Notes under the pieces: generated by a model
What the model was told of the DNA's origin: nothing
Database searches by the model: none
What the model saw: only the letters and a program-made list of their open reading frames with translations
Assembly: GCF_024734075.1 (NCBI RefSeq)
Contig: NZ_CP102850.1
Span: 248,001 to 312,000, forward strand
Source of the DNA: Gordonia mangrovi
GTDB taxonomy: Bacteria; Actinomycetota; Actinomycetes; Mycobacteriales; Mycobacteriaceae
Length of the DNA: 64,000 nt
Direction of reading: 5' to 3'
Made by a program: the position numbers and the translations under genes
Part shown: positions 47,572-57,491 of the stretch, one piece after another
Layout: every line of letters starts with the position of its first letter
How positions within the stretch are numbered: position 1 is the first letter of the stretch

Positions 47572-50502
47572 ATGCCTGTCGATGCACCGCGCCCCACGTC
47601 ATCCGATGACACCACCACCCTGCCGATCCACGCCTTGTGGCGGCCGGGCGTCGGTTTGGCGCTGTGGTGGGCCCGCCCCGATGCCGGGCCGGACGACCTA
47701 CCCGAGGTGGTCGCCGATCAGTTGTCCCGACGCCGATCCCGTCGGGACATCGCGGTCATCGGGCCCGACGGTGGCCGGGATTTCGTCAGCACCATCACAC
47801 TGAGCACGTCGTCGGCGGTCGCGATACTCGATCTCACCCGCCCATACCCGGTGAGCGGCGAAATCGGTTGGTACCGGTATCTGCTCGACGGTGTCCGCCG
47901 GGTGGTCGGCGCCGGTTCGGTGACCCCCGGCGTGGCCGAGATCGCCGGTGAACCACTCCTGCGCTGGCAGGCCGTGCCGACGCCGGCATGGCGGAGCTGG
48001 CTGGCCGTGGTGGCGGCCACCGCGCCCGGGCTGGTATCGGCCAACGGGAGCCACCACGCGATCGACGACCTGATCGCCGAGCTCGTCGACCACGAGTGTC
48101 GCGGACGGATCGCGGCCGCCGGACCGCCGGCTGCCGACGACGTTCCCGCGGCGTGGCTCATCGGTGCACTCATGCCGGACCCGCCGCCACTCGCACCGTC
48201 AACGTCATCCCGGCTCCGTTCCGCGCAGTCGGCCTGGATGCAGTGGAATGCGGCTGCACCGCAGGACGATTCGATGCTGATCCTGCGTCTTCACGAACCC
48301 GAGGACGAGTCGGACGGCGCGCCGACCCGACGGGAGAGCGAACAGGCGACACTCTGGCGTCTACAGGTATGCCGCCGTCATGCCGATGGCCGCATCGTCG
48401 CGGTGCAACCGCACCGTCTCGACCAGCAGGAACTCGACCGGGTCACCAGCGGTCTGGCGACCGCGGTGCGCGCCTTTCCCGATCTCGCGCACGCCGAACC
48501 CGATCGGCACAGCCTCGACTTCCTGCTCACCACCGACACCGTGGAGAAGCTCTTCGTCGAGGGCGCCGCCGCGCTGACCGAGGCCGGGTGCCCGGTGTTG
48601 CTGCCCCGCACTGTCGCCGAGGTCCGTCCCACCCTGGGGCTGCGTGCCCGTCCGGTGGCCACCAGCACCGGCCGGGCAGCGCAGATCGGGGTCGCCGAGG
48701 TCGACGAGTTCGAGTGGCGGCTCGCGCTCGGCGACGACCCGGCGGCGATGACGTTGTCGGAAGCCGATCTGGCCGATCTCGCCCGCCGCCAGGGTGATCT
48801 GGTGAGAGTCCGCGGCACCTGGGTTCGCGCCGAAGGAGGTGCGCTGCACCGGGCCGCCGCGTTCATCCTCGGCCAACGTGCGCACGCCGCATCGGACCAT
48901 CCGGCCGACATGGGTGAGCTGTTCAATCTCGTCGTCGACGCCGTACCCGTGCCGGTCACCTCGATCGAAGGACTCGCCTGGCTCGACGACATCGCTGCCG
49001 GCGGCCGGCTCCGACCGGGCCCGCTCCCAGCGCCCGATTCACTGCACGCACAGTTGCGTCCGTATCAGCACCGCGGGCTGGAATGGCTGGCCTATCTGGC
49101 CGCACACCGGATCGGCGGAGTGTTGGCCGACGACATGGGATTGGGCAAGACCATCCAGGTCATCGCGCTGATCTGTCACGAAAAGTCAATCGGAACGGCG
49201 GGGTCGGCGGCACCGACGCTGATCATCTGCCCGATGTCGGTGGTCGGGAACTGGGAACGTGAGATCGAACGCTTCGCACCGCATCTGCGGGTGGTGGTCC
49301 ATCACGGGACCTCACGCGCCGGGCGTGCGACCATCGCCGAGGTCGTCGCCGGCGCCGACGTCGTACTCAGCACGTTCGCCATCGTCACCCGCGATCGGGA
49401 GATCCTCGGCACGCGGCGGTGGCGGCGGGTCGTCGTCGACGAAGCCCAGCATGTGAAGAACGTTGCGACCAAGGCGGCCAAGGCCGTTCGCGCATTGCCC
49501 GCCGAGCATCGGATCGCGCTGACCGGGACGCCGGTGGAGAATCGGCTGGAGGACCTGCGCGCGGTGATCGATCTGGTCAACCCGGGCATGCTGGGTTCGG
49601 CATCGCGGTTCCGCGCCCGGTTCGCCGAACCCATCGAACGCGACCGCGATCCGGCCGCGCTGCGGCTGCTCAACGCGCTGACCCAACCGTTCATCCTGCG
49701 TCGCGAGAAGACCGATCCGTCGATCATCAACGATCTGCCCGAGAAGACCGACATCACCGTGCGCGCCAACCTCAGCCTCGAACAGGCGGCGCTGTATCGC
49801 GCGGTCATCGACGAGCTGATGGAGGCGTTGCGCAGCAAGCAGCAACGCACCATCCGTCGACGCAACATCCTGGCCGCGCTGACCCGCCTCAAGCAGGTGT
49901 GCAATCATCCCGCCCACTATCTCGCCGACGGATCGGCGATGACGCGTCGGGGTCGGCACCGGTCGGGCAAGGTCGAGCTGGTCCTCGACATCCTCTCCAC
50001 GGCCGCGGCCGAAGGCGACCGGGCGTTGGTGTTCACCCAGTTCGCCGCCTTCGGAGAGTTGTTGTCATCGTGGCTCGCCGACGCGCTCGGCACCGAGATC
50101 CCGGTGTTGCACGGTGGTGTCGGCCGGGCCGACCGTGACGACATGGTGGCCCGGTTCCAGAGCGGCAACGGCCCACCGGCGCTGATCGCCACCCTCAAGG
50201 CCGGCGGCACCGGCCTGAACCTCACCGCGGCGAACCATGTGCTGCACGTGGACCGATGGTGGAATCCCGCAGTCGAGGACCAGGCCACCGACCGCGCCTA
50301 CCGGATCGGCCAGCATCAGCGCGTGCAGGTGCACCGGTTCCTGTGCGTCGGGACCCTCGAGGAACGGATCGACGAGATGATCGCCGCCAAGCGTGAACTG
50401 TCCCGACTCACGGTGCGCTCCGGTGAGAACTGGTTGACCGAACTCGGCGACGACGAGTTGTTCGACCTGTTCGCGCTGCGCGATGAGGCGGTGAGCGAGT
50501 GA
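47572..50502 (+). CDS. SNF2-family DNA helicase, HelZ-like
   Basis: 976 residues. The N-terminal 450 residues form the SNF2-associated region found in bacterial HelZ-type proteins. The motor begins around LRPYQHRGLEWLAYLA, with Walker A DDMGLGKT (519-526), DEAQ (about 622) and LTGTPVENR; the second RecA lobe has VFTQFAAFGELLSSW, LKAGGTGLNLTAANHVLHVDRWWNPAVEDQATDRAYRIGQ. It should remodel DNA-protein complexes by ATP. M. tuberculosis HelZ (Rv2101) is the closest named relative but lies elsewhere. Its stop overlaps the SWIM-domain gene start by four bases. Confidence 0.93.
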   Translation: MPVDAPRPTSSDDTTTLPIHALWRPGVGLALWWARPDAGPDDLPEVVADQLSRRRSRRDIAVIGPDGGRDFVSTITLSTSSAVAILDLTRPYPVSGEIGWYRYLLDGVRRVVGAGSVTPGVAEIAGEPLLRWQAVPTPAWRSWLAVVAATAPGLVSANGSHHAIDDLIAELVDHECRGRIAAAGPPAADDVPAAWLIGALMPDPPPLAPSTSSRLRSAQSAWMQWNAAAPQDDSMLILRLHEPEDESDGAPTRRESEQATLWRLQVCRRHADGRIVAVQPHRLDQQELDRVTSGLATAVRAFPDLAHAEPDRHSLDFLLTTDTVEKLFVEGAAALTEAGCPVLLPRTVAEVRPTLGLRARPVATSTGRAAQIGVAEVDEFEWRLALGDDPAAMTLSEADLADLARRQGDLVRVRGTWVRAEGGALHRAAAFILGQRAHAASDHPADMGELFNLVVDAVPVPVTSIEGLAWLDDIAAGGRLRPGPLPAPDSLHAQLRPYQHRGLEWLAYLAAHRIGGVLADDMGLGKTIQVIALICHEKSIGTAGSAAPTLIICPMSVVGNWEREIERFAPHLRVVVHHGTSRAGRATIAEVVAGADVVLSTFAIVTRDREILGTRRWRRVVVDEAQHVKNVATKAAKAVRALPAEHRIALTGTPVENRLEDLRAVIDLVNPGMLGSASRFRARFAEPIERDRDPAALRLLNALTQPFILRREKTDPSIINDLPEKTDITVRANLSLEQAALYRAVIDELMEALRSKQQRTIRRRNILAALTRLKQVCNHPAHYLADGSAMTRRGRHRSGKVELVLDILSTAAAEGDRALVFTQFAAFGELLSSWLADALGTEIPVLHGGVGRADRDDMVARFQSGNGPPALIATLKAGGTGLNLTAANHVLHVDRWWNPAVEDQATDRAYRIGQHQRVQVHRFLCVGTLEERIDEMIAAKRELSRLTVRSGENWLTELGDDELFDLFALRDEAVSE

Positions 50503-51290
50503 GCCCGCGCGGCAGTCAACGGCGCACGCCGCGGGCGTCGGCGACCCGCGGTTACGGCGTCACGCGCTGGGGTCGCGCCTTTGTCGACGTCGTCGAGGGT
50601 GTGCATACCGGCGATGCGGACCGTCGGCGGATCACCCAGGCGCGACGCTATTTTCGTGATCATCATGCCGAACGCCTGCGGATCGGCGCGGCGCGGGTGA
50701 CGGCCTCGGTGCGGGGCAGCCAGCTCGACCCGTTCGAGGTGACCCTCACCATGCGTCCGGTCGACCCCGCGACCGTGGTGACATTGCTGCGCAGCGGCGA
50801 TGCGACCGGCGACCTGATGGCGCTGACCCGTGGCGAGCAGCCGTCGGCGCTCGGCGAATTGGTCTTGCCGACCGAGTCCGCCGACATCGCGGCGGATTGC
50901 ACGTGCCCGGATGAGTCGCCGCGGTGCATCCACGTCCTGTGCGTCGCCTACGAGACGGCTGCCGAGATCGATCGCAGCGCAGCCACGCTGCTCGCGGTGA
51001 TGGGCACCGACACCGCGCAGCTACTGGCCGCGGCCAACGAGACGGAGTCCGCAGGTGATACCACTGCCTCCGCCGGCGACGCAGCCGTCCCGACTGTCGA
51101 CTACTACGGAACGAACGCGGTGCTGCCCCCGCTGCCCACTCCCCCGCGCCTGAACCCGATCATGGAGCTCGACGCCGACGCGCTCCGCGCAGCGCTACGC
51201 ACCTCCGGCATCGCACCCGCCGACATCGGCGAGGCCATCGACCTGCTCGACGACCTCTACGACCGCATCCGCGACCGCCCGGTTTCGTAG
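50499..51290 (+). CDS. SWIM zinc-finger protein
   Basis: 263 residues. SWIM finger CTCPDESPRCIHVLCV (Cys-x-Cys-x7-Cys-x-His) near residue 133-148, which binds zinc and nucleic acid or protein. N-terminal basic part with GYGVTRWGRAFVDVV and RARRYFRDHH; C-terminal helix-rich acidic stretch. GTG overlaps the helicase stop by four bases, so the two are made together; SWIM proteins beside SNF2 helicases are a recurrent bacterial pairing. The stop codon lies inside a perfect hairpin. Confidence 0.88.
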   Translation: MSPRGSQRRTPRASATRGYGVTRWGRAFVDVVEGVHTGDADRRRITQARRYFRDHHAERLRIGAARVTASVRGSQLDPFEVTLTMRPVDPATVVTLLRSGDATGDLMALTRGEQPSALGELVLPTESADIAADCTCPDESPRCIHVLCVAYETAAEIDRSAATLLAVMGTDTAQLLAAANETESAGDTTASAGDAAVPTVDYYGTNAVLPPLPTPPRLNPIMELDADALRAALRTSGIAPADIGEAIDLLDDLYDRIRDRPVS

Positions 51291-51337: not shown

Positions 51338-53141
<1,804 letters not shown>

Positions 53142-53154
53142 CGGTGATCAGTCC

Positions 53155-56100
53155 TCACAACATGCAGGAAACGCAACCCTCCACCTCAGTCCCCTCGAGA
53201 GCGAGCTGACGCAGACGGATGTAGTAGAGCGTCTTGATCCCCTTGCGCCATGCGTAGATCTGCGCCTTGTTGACGTCGCGGGTGGTGGCGGTGTCCTTGA
53301 AGAACAAGGTGAGACTCAGCCCCTGGTCGACGTGCTGGGTCGCCGCGGCGTAGGTGTCGATGACCTTCTCGTACCCGATCTCATACGCATCCTGGTAGTA
53401 CTCCAGGTTGTCGTTGGTCATGTACGGCGCCGGGTAATAGACGCGGCCGATCTTGCCTTCCTTGCGGATCTCGATCTTCGCGGCGACCGGGTGGATCGAG
53501 CTGGTCGAGTGGTTGATGTAGGAGATCGATCCGGTCGGCGGGACGGCCTGCAGATTCTGGTTGTAGATACCGTCGCGCTGCACGGCGGCCTTCAGCTCCC
53601 GCCAGTCGTCCTGGGTGGGAATGTGAATTCCGGCCTGGCCGAACAGGTCGCGTACCTTCTGGGTCTCCGGCTCCCACACCTTCTCGGTGTACTTGTCGAA
53701 GAACTCCCCGCTGGCGTACTTCGACTTCTCGAAGCCGCCGAAGGCATGGCCACGTTCACGCGCGATCTTGTTCGACGCCCGCAGCGCGTGGAACAGCACC
53801 GTGTAGAAGTAGATGTTCGTGAAGTCGACACCTTCGTCGCTGCCGTAGAAGATCCGTTCGCGGGCCAGGTAGCCGTGCAGGTTCATCTGACCGAGGCCGA
53901 TGGCGTGGGAGTCGTTGTTGCCCTTCTCGATCGAGGGCACCGAGGTGATCGAGGTCTGATCGCTGACCGCGGTGAGACCGCGGATCGCGGTCTCGATGGT
54001 CTGCCCGAAGTCGGGTGAGTCCATCGCCTTGGCGATGTTGAGCGACCCGAGGTTGCACGAGATGTCCTTACCGATGTGCGAGTAGGACAGATCGTCGTTG
54101 AACTCTGACGCGGTGGAGACCTGCAGGATCTCCGAGCACAGGTTGGAGTGGGTGATCTTGCCGTCGATCGGGTTGGCCCGGTTCACCGTGTCCTCGAACA
54201 TGATGTACGGGTAGCCCGACTCGAACTGCAACTCGGCGAGGGTCTGGAAGAACTCGCGGGCCTTGATCTTGGTCTTGCGGATGCGCTTGTCCTCGACCAT
54301 CTCGTGGTACGTGTCGGTCACGTTCACATCGGCGAACGGCACCCCGTAGACGCGCTCGACGTCGTACGGGCTGAACAGGTACATGTCGTCGTTGTCCTTG
54401 GCGAGCTGGAAGGTGATGTCGGGGATCACCACGCCGAGCGAGAGCGTCTTGATGCGGATCTTCTCGTCCGCGTTCTCCCGTTTGGTGTCGAGGAAGCGGT
54501 AGATGTCGGGATGATGGGCGTGCAGATACACCGCGCCGGCGCCCTGGCGCGCGCCGAGCTGGTTGGCGTAGGAGAACGAGTCCTCGAGCAGCTTCATGAT
54601 CGGGATGACGCCCGAGCTCTGGTTCTCGATCTTCTTGATCGGCGCGCCGTGCTCACGGATGTTGGACAGCAGCAGCGCCACTCCTCCGCCGCGCTTGGAG
54701 AGCTGGAGAGCCGAATTGATCGACCGCCCAATGGATTCCATGTTGTCTTCGATGCGAAGGAGGAAGCAGTTGTGCACTACTGTTCCGCGAATCGAGTAGG
54801 TGTGCGTCCCTTCGACGTGCAGGTTGTACACCTTCTCCGGCGTCTGGTCGGTGCGGACGACCTCACGAATTCCGTAGACATGGCGGCCATGCACGACCTG
54901 ATACGTCGTCCGAAGGGCTCCCTTGCGGCCGACGTAGTTGTGCAGATTCTTGCCGACGTCGAAGATGAAGTCCTCGTTGGTTCCGGGAAGCCCAGGAACG
55001 AAGACCTGACCGGTGATGTTTCCGGCTCGATTGACGTAGCGGCGGACCGTCGACATGATGCCCAGTCGCCGCAGGATCAGCTGAACCTGGTCGATCAGTT
55101 CGGGATTGACCAGGTCGAGCATCATTCCACCGGTCGTCGAGCACCCATCTCCGCGAAACAGCCCCATGAGAAGACCCAGTTGGAACTCCTCATCCGCAGT
55201 CAGTACGTCGGACGACAGAATCTTGGTGCCGTACCCGGTGCCGGCGAGCGAAAGCATCAACTCGGCGACAACTTTGCTATTGCACACCATCCGTACCGAA
55301 TGGTCGGAAGTGCTCTCGTACACAGTCAGGTCAGTCGCGAACACTCGCTTGAACGCGTCCTTGAGATCGTTCTGGTAGAAGACCTCGTGCGCACCCAGCG
55401 TGAAATGGACGCCGTTCGGAACCGACCGGTCCGTCGAGCGCTTGGAAACATGCCCCTCCGACACATACCACCCGAGGATGAGTCCGAGGTCGTAGGACTC
55501 CTCGACATAGCGATTGACGGAGTTGAAGGTCTGACTGTGCCGCTGCTTGTTTCGGTGCTTCTTGTCCGTGTTCACCTTCTGGATCAGGCCGTCGACTTCT
55601 TCGTACAGGCCTGATCCGACATACTTCATCAGGTCATGGCTACGTGCTTCACGGACTTCGGTCGGTGCTGTTGTGACGATGAAGTCGGCAGGGTCGACGT
55701 CTTGGGCAGCCAGCCAGACGAAGCCGTTGAAGCTGTCCGACCCGTCGCCAGCGATGATGGTGTCCACGTCACGGGTCGTCCAGACGAGGATGGGGTGCTC
55801 CGGCGTGCAGAGGATCGGCTCTTTGTGCCCGAAGTGTGAAATCGACACCAAAGCCTGGTCGTTGGGGTTCTCGATGAGTTCCTCTACCCTCGCGAACGAG
55901 CCATCGTGCGACAGCACTCGGTCGCCGGGCCGCAACGATTCGATCGCCTTGGGACCGTTGTCGGTGTCGATCGGCGTTCCGGCCGGGAAACAGCTCACCG
56001 GCTCACCGCGCTGCTTCTTACCCGAGTTGAGGAAGGTCGGGGTGGCCGGCTGGAAGCGGCCCTCGATGATCTCGTCGACGAGGTGACGCGCGAGCGCCGT

Positions 56101-56574
56101 GTCGCCGTCGGCCAGGGTCAGCGCCACCATGCACACGCGATCCTCGAAGCGCTCGAGATAGCGCTTGCCGTCGAAGGTCTTGAGCGTGTAGCTCGTGTAG
56201 TACTTGAACGCACCGAGGAAGGTCGGGAATCGGAACTTCTTCGAGAAGGCGTGCCCGAACAGGAGTTTCACGAACTCGCGGTCGTAGCGGGCGAGGACCT
56301 CGGGCTCGTAGTAGTTCTCCTCGAGGAGATAGTCGAGCTTTTCGTCGAGGTCGTGGAAGAAGACCGTGTTCTGGTTGACGTGCTGCAGGAAGTACTGGTT
56401 GGCCGCTTCGCGGTCCTTGTCGAACTGGATGTTGCCGTCCCGGTCGTACAGGTTCAGCATCGCGTTGAGCGCGTGATAGTCCAATTCGCCGGGCTCATGC
56501 CCCGACGGGCCGGCGTGCACACCGGACTTGCTGGCCGAGGCGGTGTCCGAGACGGGTGCGGCGGTTGGCGACAC
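53155..56574 (-). CDS. nrdE: Class Ib ribonucleotide reductase, large subunit, with intein
   Basis: Reduces ribonucleoside diphosphates to deoxy forms. The reading frame has 1139 residues, but residues 195-602 are an intein; spliced, the protein has 731, close to normal NrdE. N-terminal extein: cone-like N-terminal region then [10 protein letters not shown] and [17 protein letters not shown]-terminal extein begins [14 protein letters not shown], in which the first Cys is the redox-active cysteine equivalent to Cys225 of E. coli NrdA; catalytic NLCSEI and the redox-shuttle C-terminal CVSCML are intact. GTG start with AGGAG 6-7 bases upstream. Follows nrdI by 59 bases. Confidence 0.97.
54769..55992 (-). 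other. Intein with LAGLIDADG endonuclease in NrdE
   Basis: 408 residues, Cys195 to Asn602 of the precursor. Block A begins [15 protein letters not shown], followed by the Hint-fold TPEHPI (block B, Thr and His). Two dodecapeptide motifs of the homing endonuclease are seen: [15 protein letters not shown] near intein residue 167 and [14 protein letters not shown] near 270. The C-end shows [16 protein letters not shown] and ends VVHN, with Cys as +1 extein residue, the normal splice set (Cys1, penultimate His, Asn, Cys+1). It interrupts the extein exactly at an essential active-site cysteine, so splicing is needed for enzyme activity. Whether the endonuclease is active is unknown, but both motifs keep acidic residues. 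Confidence 0.95.
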
Positions 56575-56633: not shown

Positions 56634-57155
56634 TCAGGCGCGCGAGGCGCTCAGCCCAGCCCGCTCCGGATGGGTGAACGCCGCGCTCTGCGCGAACTCG
56701 GCCAATCCCTCCCGCACACGTTCGACGTCCTCGGCCGTTCCCATCAGCTCGAACCGATAGAGGTACGGCACGCGGCACTTGCGCGAGACGATGTCACCGG
56801 CGAGGCAGAACTCCTCACCGAAGTTGGTGTTCCCGGCCGCGATGACGGCTCGGATCAACGCGCGGTTGTGGATGTTGTTGAGAAATTTGATGACCTGCTT
56901 GGGTACGTACCCCGACCGGTCACCGGTCGCCTTGCCGCCACCGTATGTGGGCAGCACCAGCACGAACGGCTCGTCGACGGTGAACAACGCCGGATCGCCG
57001 AGAACCGGGATACGCATGGAACGCAACCGCAGTTTCTCGACGAATCGATGGGTGTTCTCCGACACCGAGGAGAAGTACACGATCAACGGCGTCCCGTCGT
57101 ACAACGGCACCGGGACATCCGGCACCGGGACATCCGGGTTCGAGGTCTGGGTCAC
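56634..57155 (-). CDS. nrdI: NrdI flavodoxin-like activator
   Basis: 173 residues, flavodoxin-like protein that helps form the metal-tyrosyl radical in NrdF. Family signature: [20 protein letters not shown], then [12 protein letters not shown] and [21 protein letters not shown]. The N-terminus carries a short VPVPDVPVP repeat that is not in the fold, so the true start may be a little downstream, though GTG 57153-57155 is usable. Confidence 0.95.
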
Positions 57156-57257: not shown

Positions 57258-57491
57258 TCAGGCAGCCGATGCCGCCAGCGCCTTGATGCGATCCGGACGG
57301 AAACCCGACCAGTGCTCGTCACCGACGACCACCACGGGCGCCTGCAGGTAGCCGAGAGCCATCACGTAGTCCCGGGCCTCGTCGTCGGTGCTGATGTCAA
57401 CGACCTCATAGCTCAGACCTTGCTTGTCGAGGGCTTTGTAGGTGGCGTTGCACTGGACGCAGGCGGGCTTGGTGTAGACGGTGATGGCCAT
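57258..57491 (-). CDS. nrdH: NrdH redoxin
   Basis: 77-residue glutaredoxin-like protein that supplies electrons to NrdE; active site Cys-Val-Gln-Cys in KPACVQCNAT and C-terminal SGFRPDRIKAL. ATG with GAGGAG about 9 bases upstream; sequence before that is not conserved-looking. First gene of the nrdH-nrdI-nrdE(-DinB-nrdF) operon, with a long 5' region. Confidence 0.97.
   Translation of the reverse strand: MAITVYTKPACVQCNATYKALDKQGLSYEVVDISTDDEARDYVMALGYLQAPVVVVGDEHWSGFRPDRIKALAASAA

Follow-up and report, generated by a model that had tools for sequence, protein, structure and literature searches.

A full-length intein inserted before a redox-active cysteine of the class Ib ribonucleotide reductase of Gordonia mangrovi

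Ribonucleotide reductase (RNR) is a classic target of inteins. In the window analysed here, a stretch of 64,000 nucleotides of the Gordonia mangrovi genome, the gene for the RNR large subunit NrdE is interrupted by an insert that ends immediately before a cysteine of the reductase. This arrangement raises the question whether the insert is an ordinary mobile intein that happens to occupy a catalytic site or, as the original prediction proposed by way of hypothesis, a device that makes the maturation of the enzyme, and with it the supply of dNTPs, dependent on the redox state of the cell.

The interrupted gene occupies positions 53155..56574 of the minus strand, which also carries all the features described below for nrdE, nrdI, nrdH and nrdF, and encodes a 1139-aa precursor of the class Ib large subunit (ORF; 1248 bits with TIGR04170, RNR_1b_NrdE). 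The precursor consists of an N-extein of 194 aa (55993..56574), a class 1 intein of 408 aa (54769..55992), and a C-extein of 537 aa followed by the stop codon (53155..54768; PF02867); the two exteins are joined directly to each other in intein-free alleles and in NrdE of solved structure. The neighbouring genes encode the flavodoxin NrdI (56634..57155; PF07972, TIGR00333), the glutaredoxin-like protein NrdH (57258..57491, with the start codon picked by eye; TIGR02194) and the small subunit NrdF (51338..52339; PF00268, TIGR04171). Between nrdE and nrdF lies a gene for a mycothiol-dependent maleylpyruvate isomerase-like protein (window 52398-53141), which has no match in the retrieved nrdE regions of three other Gordonia genomes (G054, G050 and G040). 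An ORF at window 50499-51290, which is without a Pfam or NCBIfam match and in which a SWIM-like CxC...CxH motif was recognized by eye, adjoins an SNF2 helicase gene.

In a profile search, the 5.39 Mb genome that includes the window (G000) yielded a single class I/II RNR barrel protein (PF02867, whose model finds a match in 11 of the 14 control genomes); NrdD, whose model matches 6 of the 14, was not detected. Because NrdE is the sole large RNR subunit found in the genome, dNTP supply in the host very probably depends on splicing of NrdE.

The insert comprises 1224 bp, that is, 408 codons, in frame within the single 1139-aa ORF; it starts with CFPAGTP and ends with VVHN, after which the C-extein continues with CFLLRIED. 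The residues that characterize class 1 inteins are all present, namely Cys1, the first splicing nucleophile (55990..55992), a TxxH block B (TPEH, T63-H66; 55795..55806), the penultimate His407 and terminal Asn408 within the VVHN of block G (54769..54780), and a cysteine at the +1 position (54766..54768). Block B is preceded directly by Cys62 (55807..55809), a candidate redox partner considered below. Two LAGLIDADG motifs, both assigned by eye, span residues 169-180 (55453..55488), with the acidic residue E179, and 272-283 (55144..55179), with D282, the latter motif falling within the match to PF14528 (LAGLIDADG_3). Across the window and 22 aligned relatives (23 rows), the residues C1, T63, H66, E179, D282, H407 and N408 are invariant, as is block B as a whole.

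Among the Pfam and NCBIfam HMMs, LAGLIDADG_3 and Hint_2 score above their cut-offs in the intein, intein_Cterm (TIGR01443) does so in the whole-gene search only, and Intein_splicing (PF14890) falls below its cut-off. A phmmer search of the PDB yielded only weak matches (four at E up to 1, including PI-PfuI). The AlphaFold model of the intein (mean pLDDT 75, pTM 0.61) retrieves the TliVMA, PI-SceI and PI-PfuI inteins in Foldseek with E values from 7e-18 to 5e-12, at a TM score of about 0.5 and an rmsd of 9-12 A over the whole chain. A Hint fold is thus recognized by the Hint_2 HMM and the model, PF14890 itself being below threshold, and a LAGLIDADG endonuclease by the PF14528 match and the two motifs with their acidic residues. 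The original prediction of a full-length intein in NrdE, with every splice residue and both LAGLIDADG motifs in place, is therefore accurate, down to the base in its coordinates, and the endonuclease, whose two acids are invariant, is apparently intact.

The +1 cysteine, residue 603 of the precursor, aligns in the phmmer comparison with position 178 of Salmonella NrdE (1PEM) and, going by its match coordinates on E. coli R1, with position 225 of E. coli NrdA, provided that the alignment is ungapped there. The intein is thus inserted immediately before the equivalent of Cys225. We take the cysteines at both of these reference positions, as established for RNR, to be redox-active, so the alignment bears out the earlier claim that the +1 residue is a redox-active cysteine of the reductase active site. 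An RNR intein of Aquifex, located in the R2 subunit, sits between two metal ligands, according to the available text of PMC8772380.

The distribution of the intein is patchy. Of 401 family genomes, 23 contain it, spread over 5 of 31 genera, and all 23 copies cover residues 1-408 without a stop; no degenerate or mini forms were detected among these carriers. The C-extein was found in 393 of the 401 genomes; 370 of these 393 have no intein match, with only some of the alleles outside Gordonia read at the junction. Within Gordonia, the intein is present in 4 of 59 genomes, including that of the window, and the C-extein in 57; all 57 nrdE alleles were read, and 53 are empty, with seamless, intact junctions between conserved exteins. 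Intein-free alleles in close strains, proposed earlier as a check, were thus searched for and found, and since they exist, the contrary outcome of no empty-site alleles does not obtain. Because exactly this segment is missing from 53 of 57 Gordonia nrdE genes and the splice and endonuclease residues are invariant in 23 rows, the comparison of sequences identifies the 408-aa insert as a real intein and not a chance resemblance.

A scan of named genomes yielded 29 loci, mostly from Gordonia, Nocardia and Mycobacterium, of which 28 contain the whole intein and one, near a contig end, is partial. Across Actinomycetota, 7 of 396 genomes matched, three of them family members (the window's own genome included) and four with weak partial matches, so that strong matches in the phylum sample are confined to the family. 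Plasmid records gave five weak matches. The window's own genome contains no second copy of the NrdE intein, only one chance-level match. A different intein of this genome resides in DnaB (L169, G000:C1, match 2574227-2574295; RESG/CLPASAR...LHN/SLEQDAD, with slashes at the splice junctions) and includes two LAGLIDADG-like motifs recognized by eye. No description of this NrdE intein of Mycobacteriales was found in a literature search from whose scope most subscription papers and InBase were excluded. All in all, the NrdE intein looks like a bifunctional intein of the ordinary sort, well preserved and belonging to a type of mobile element already known.

In the scheme that we propose, Cys1 would attack the N-terminal junction, the chain would be transferred to the +1 residue, which is the enzyme's own catalytic cysteine, and Asn408 would then cyclize, with ligation of the exteins into wild-type NrdE. 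The nested LAGLIDADG endonuclease would cleave this conserved site in nrdE alleles that lack the intein, and the intein would then be copied in during repair along with some flanking DNA; such cutting and copying would lead to repeated gain and loss across Mycobacteriales. We infer splicing, cutting and homing from the anatomy of the intein, its conservation, the empty alleles, the patchy distribution and the mosaic flanks, and hold with high confidence that the insert is a class 1 bifunctional intein that would splice itself out of NrdE, home into empty alleles and have been repeatedly gained and lost in Mycobacteriales. Splicing is most likely constitutive.

Homing with co-conversion predicts that differences between filled and empty alleles should concentrate near the site. 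Third codon positions were compared among the 46 of 57 Gordonia alleles that were long enough and matched in length (the 11 omitted include the carrier G045). There are two close filled/empty sister pairs, the window's genome (G000) with G054, and G050 with G040, and in both the C-extein proteins are identical in 536 of 537 residues. At the DNA level, the G000 and G054 C-exteins (window 53155-54768) are 98.5% identical over 1.6 kb, with 81-91% identity in seven neighbouring genes and 95% in nrdF. In both sister pairs, differences cluster in an interval that begins 450 bp ahead of the site and ends 180 bp beyond it, and the ratio of third-site differences near the insertion to those further into the C-extein is 5.9 (G000/G054) and 3.1 (G050/G040), compared to 0.49-1.44 in those 43 of the 45 closest pairs in which both alleles are empty and to at most 1.66 in all 903 empty/empty pairs, which are not independent of one another because alleles recur among them. 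With a cumulative-sum statistic, permutation of the order gave 0/2000 for each of the two sister pairs; among nine other pairs, one empty/empty pair (G013/G049) had a p value of 0.002. The longest-run statistic, with p values of 0.001 and 0.029 for the sister pairs, fails to separate them because the controls reach values as low as 0.0035.

This clustering would fit homing with co-conversion or allele exchange at the site. There is a substantial chance, if somewhat below even, that the mosaics arose not by homing but by ordinary recombination that halted at the 1.2 kb of heterologous sequence, a process compatible with the overall explanation favoured here. The dS value in the core of the G000/G054 C-extein is 0.04, whereas it reaches 0.20 in nrdF and 0.49-0.73 in the seven neighbouring genes; what was imported may therefore be the core, in a tract that stops about 60 bp from the intein. 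Similarly, no excess near the site is seen in the carrier G033 when it is compared with G008, next to it in the tree (ratio 1.34), and donor flanks in common are absent from the three filled/filled pairs (ratio 1.0-1.1). The recurrence of the pattern in both close filled/empty sister pairs, as opposed to none of the 903 empty/empty pairs, argues against ordinary recombination and for homing.

Two short sequences 3' of the site were also compared between filled and empty alleles. The motif CTCCTTCG occurs in 9 of 20 filled vs 0 of 29 empty alleles in Mycobacterium and in 2 of 4 vs 2 of 53 in Gordonia; in Nocardia, there is no difference (3 of 16 vs 6 of 26), which speaks against this footprint as a general mark of filled alleles. 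These counts are exploratory only, given that each distinct flank was counted a single time, that species are not independent, that several tests were made, and that the empty sets of Mycobacterium and Nocardia were drawn only from the 30 loci that scored best among 95 and 97 matching genomes, respectively. The synonymous haplotype GAATCCATTGG, just 3' of the insertion site, is present in all four filled and in 10 of 53 empty Gordonia alleles, among the latter those of G030, G031, G047, G054 and G040; such empty alleles might carry the trace of a lost intein.

Redox gating of NrdE splicing is possible, given the oxidant-sensitive splicing published for an intein of Mycobacterium smegmatis, but is not indicated by the data. 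Under this hypothesis, oxidation of Cys1 or of the +1 cysteine, for example in a disulfide with Cys62, would reversibly halt splicing, so that a reduced cell would be required for NrdE to mature, which would tie dNTP supply to oxidative stress. The nature of the +1 residue, the finding of NrdE as the only large RNR subunit and the invariance of Cys62 (23/23 rows) speak in its favour, and the presence of this extra cysteine beside TPEH makes it testable. The argument from the +1 cysteine alone is weak because, to our knowledge, every intein requires Cys, Ser or Thr at this position, and because conserved catalytic sites are the usual targets of inteins. Furthermore, cysteine inteins in general are open to oxidation in vitro, the phage homologue described below has Ser in place of Cys62, and the adjacent N-extein offers no cysteine in its last ten residues that could form a redox trap with Cys1. 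A specific switch would need a partner thiol, for which Cys62 and other active-site cysteines of the C-extein are candidates. With the intein undetected in 370 of 393 nrdE-containing genomes of the family and absent from 53 of 57 Gordonia alleles, we consider redox gating improbable. Slightly less probable again is the extended proposal of a post-translational checkpoint on dNTP synthesis, in which a disulfide of Cys62 with Cys1 or the +1 cysteine would keep NrdE unspliced under oxidation in a host in which no other RNR was found, and selection for this property would preserve the intein in some lineages. The precedent is DnaBi1, one of two DnaB inteins of M. smegmatis, which the available text of PMC6195587 describes as stress responsive and gated through a disulfide of its catalytic cysteine (the Cys48-Cys118 pair).

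The history of the intein was traced in two trees. The four Gordonia copies group as a single clade in the intein tree, which has 31 rows, and the copy in the window can therefore be explained without a recent intergeneric transfer; the copies of Mycolicibacter senuensis and Nocardia takedensis are placed apart from those of other Mycobacterium and other Nocardia, respectively, which suggests that the intein has passed from one genus to another a few times. In a tree of Gordonia nrdE built from exteins only, the nearest relatives of each carrier are empty, and four changes are needed for the four carriers, not fewer than with shuffled labels. Across three genome pairs, the endonuclease part has a dN/dS of 0.08-0.11 and the splicing part one of 0.09-0.12; between G000 and G050, dS is 0.353 in the intein compared to 0.348 and 0.434 in the exteins. 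Vertical inheritance of a splicing-only intein with a dead endonuclease, which would fit the single Gordonia clade and the match between intein and extein dS, is the least probable of these readings, and very unlikely, given the invariance of both endonuclease acids, the comparable purifying selection on the two parts, the empty relative next to every carrier and the two placements across genera.

The locus amounts to a natural experiment, with close relatives that contain and lack the intein in a host with NrdE as the only RNR found. The near-identical filled and empty alleles and the single RNR found make it possible to measure what splicing costs, how long the homing tract is and whether splicing is conditional; the value of the NrdE intein is that of an experimental system.

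Outside the family, the nearest relative found comes from a phage. Among 50,697 phage records, 23 match the intein at E up to 0.01, and the best match, in Enterococcus phage vB_Efa29212_3e (OP559178), is a full-length intein of 409 aa (aligned identity 49%, 48.2% by tblastn) that occupies the identical NrdE site (GEYVS/C...VHN/CFLIQVED) and keeps the acids corresponding to E179 and D282. Unlike the gene in the window, the phage nrdE is split into several frames, and Cys62 is replaced by Ser. The phage gene (L036:5476-10350) is broken by more insertions than the intein alone. No relatives were found between 73% and 49% identity, Bacillota genomes being covered only by the scan for close relatives. 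The same-site relative makes phages a possible route between phyla. In IMG/VR, two single-sequence scans detected no intein relative, and an alignment scan yielded 36 loci at 20-27% identity; since the match reaches back to residue 1 in only 20 of the 36, all were searched with both exteins, and no NrdE was found around them, whereas the phage loci L036-L038 matched as controls.

Several known systems resemble the NrdE intein in part. The intein of Tenacibaculum phage PTm1 (26% identity over query residues 1-312) lies at the matching position of an NrdA-type large subunit (AS/C...HN/C) but runs across two reading frames. That of corynephage P1201, for which the intein search of phage records gave no match, is shorter and precedes another cysteine of NrdE (SSNL/C...TGN/CSEI), presumably the thiyl cysteine. 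The available text of PMC3653736 describes it as the CP1201 RIR1 intein and reports the intein-containing nrdE as functionally active; like the intein in the window, it lies directly before an active-site cysteine. M. smegmatis DnaBi1 is likewise a mycobacterial intein with a catalytic cysteine and a precedent for redox gating, but it belongs to class 3 and resides in DnaB, the likeness being drawn from its description in the available text of PMC6195587. PI-PfuI (1DQ3), PI-SceI and TliVMA appear, by comparison with the model, to share the Hint and LAGLIDADG folds at 12-15% identity among the matches listed. Closest of all are the NrdE inteins of Nocardia, Mycobacterium, Gordonia and Lolliginicoccus, which occupy the same site, comprise 405-410 aa in the 41 loci read and, at 73-94% identity, differ from that in the window, as far as read, by sequence divergence only.
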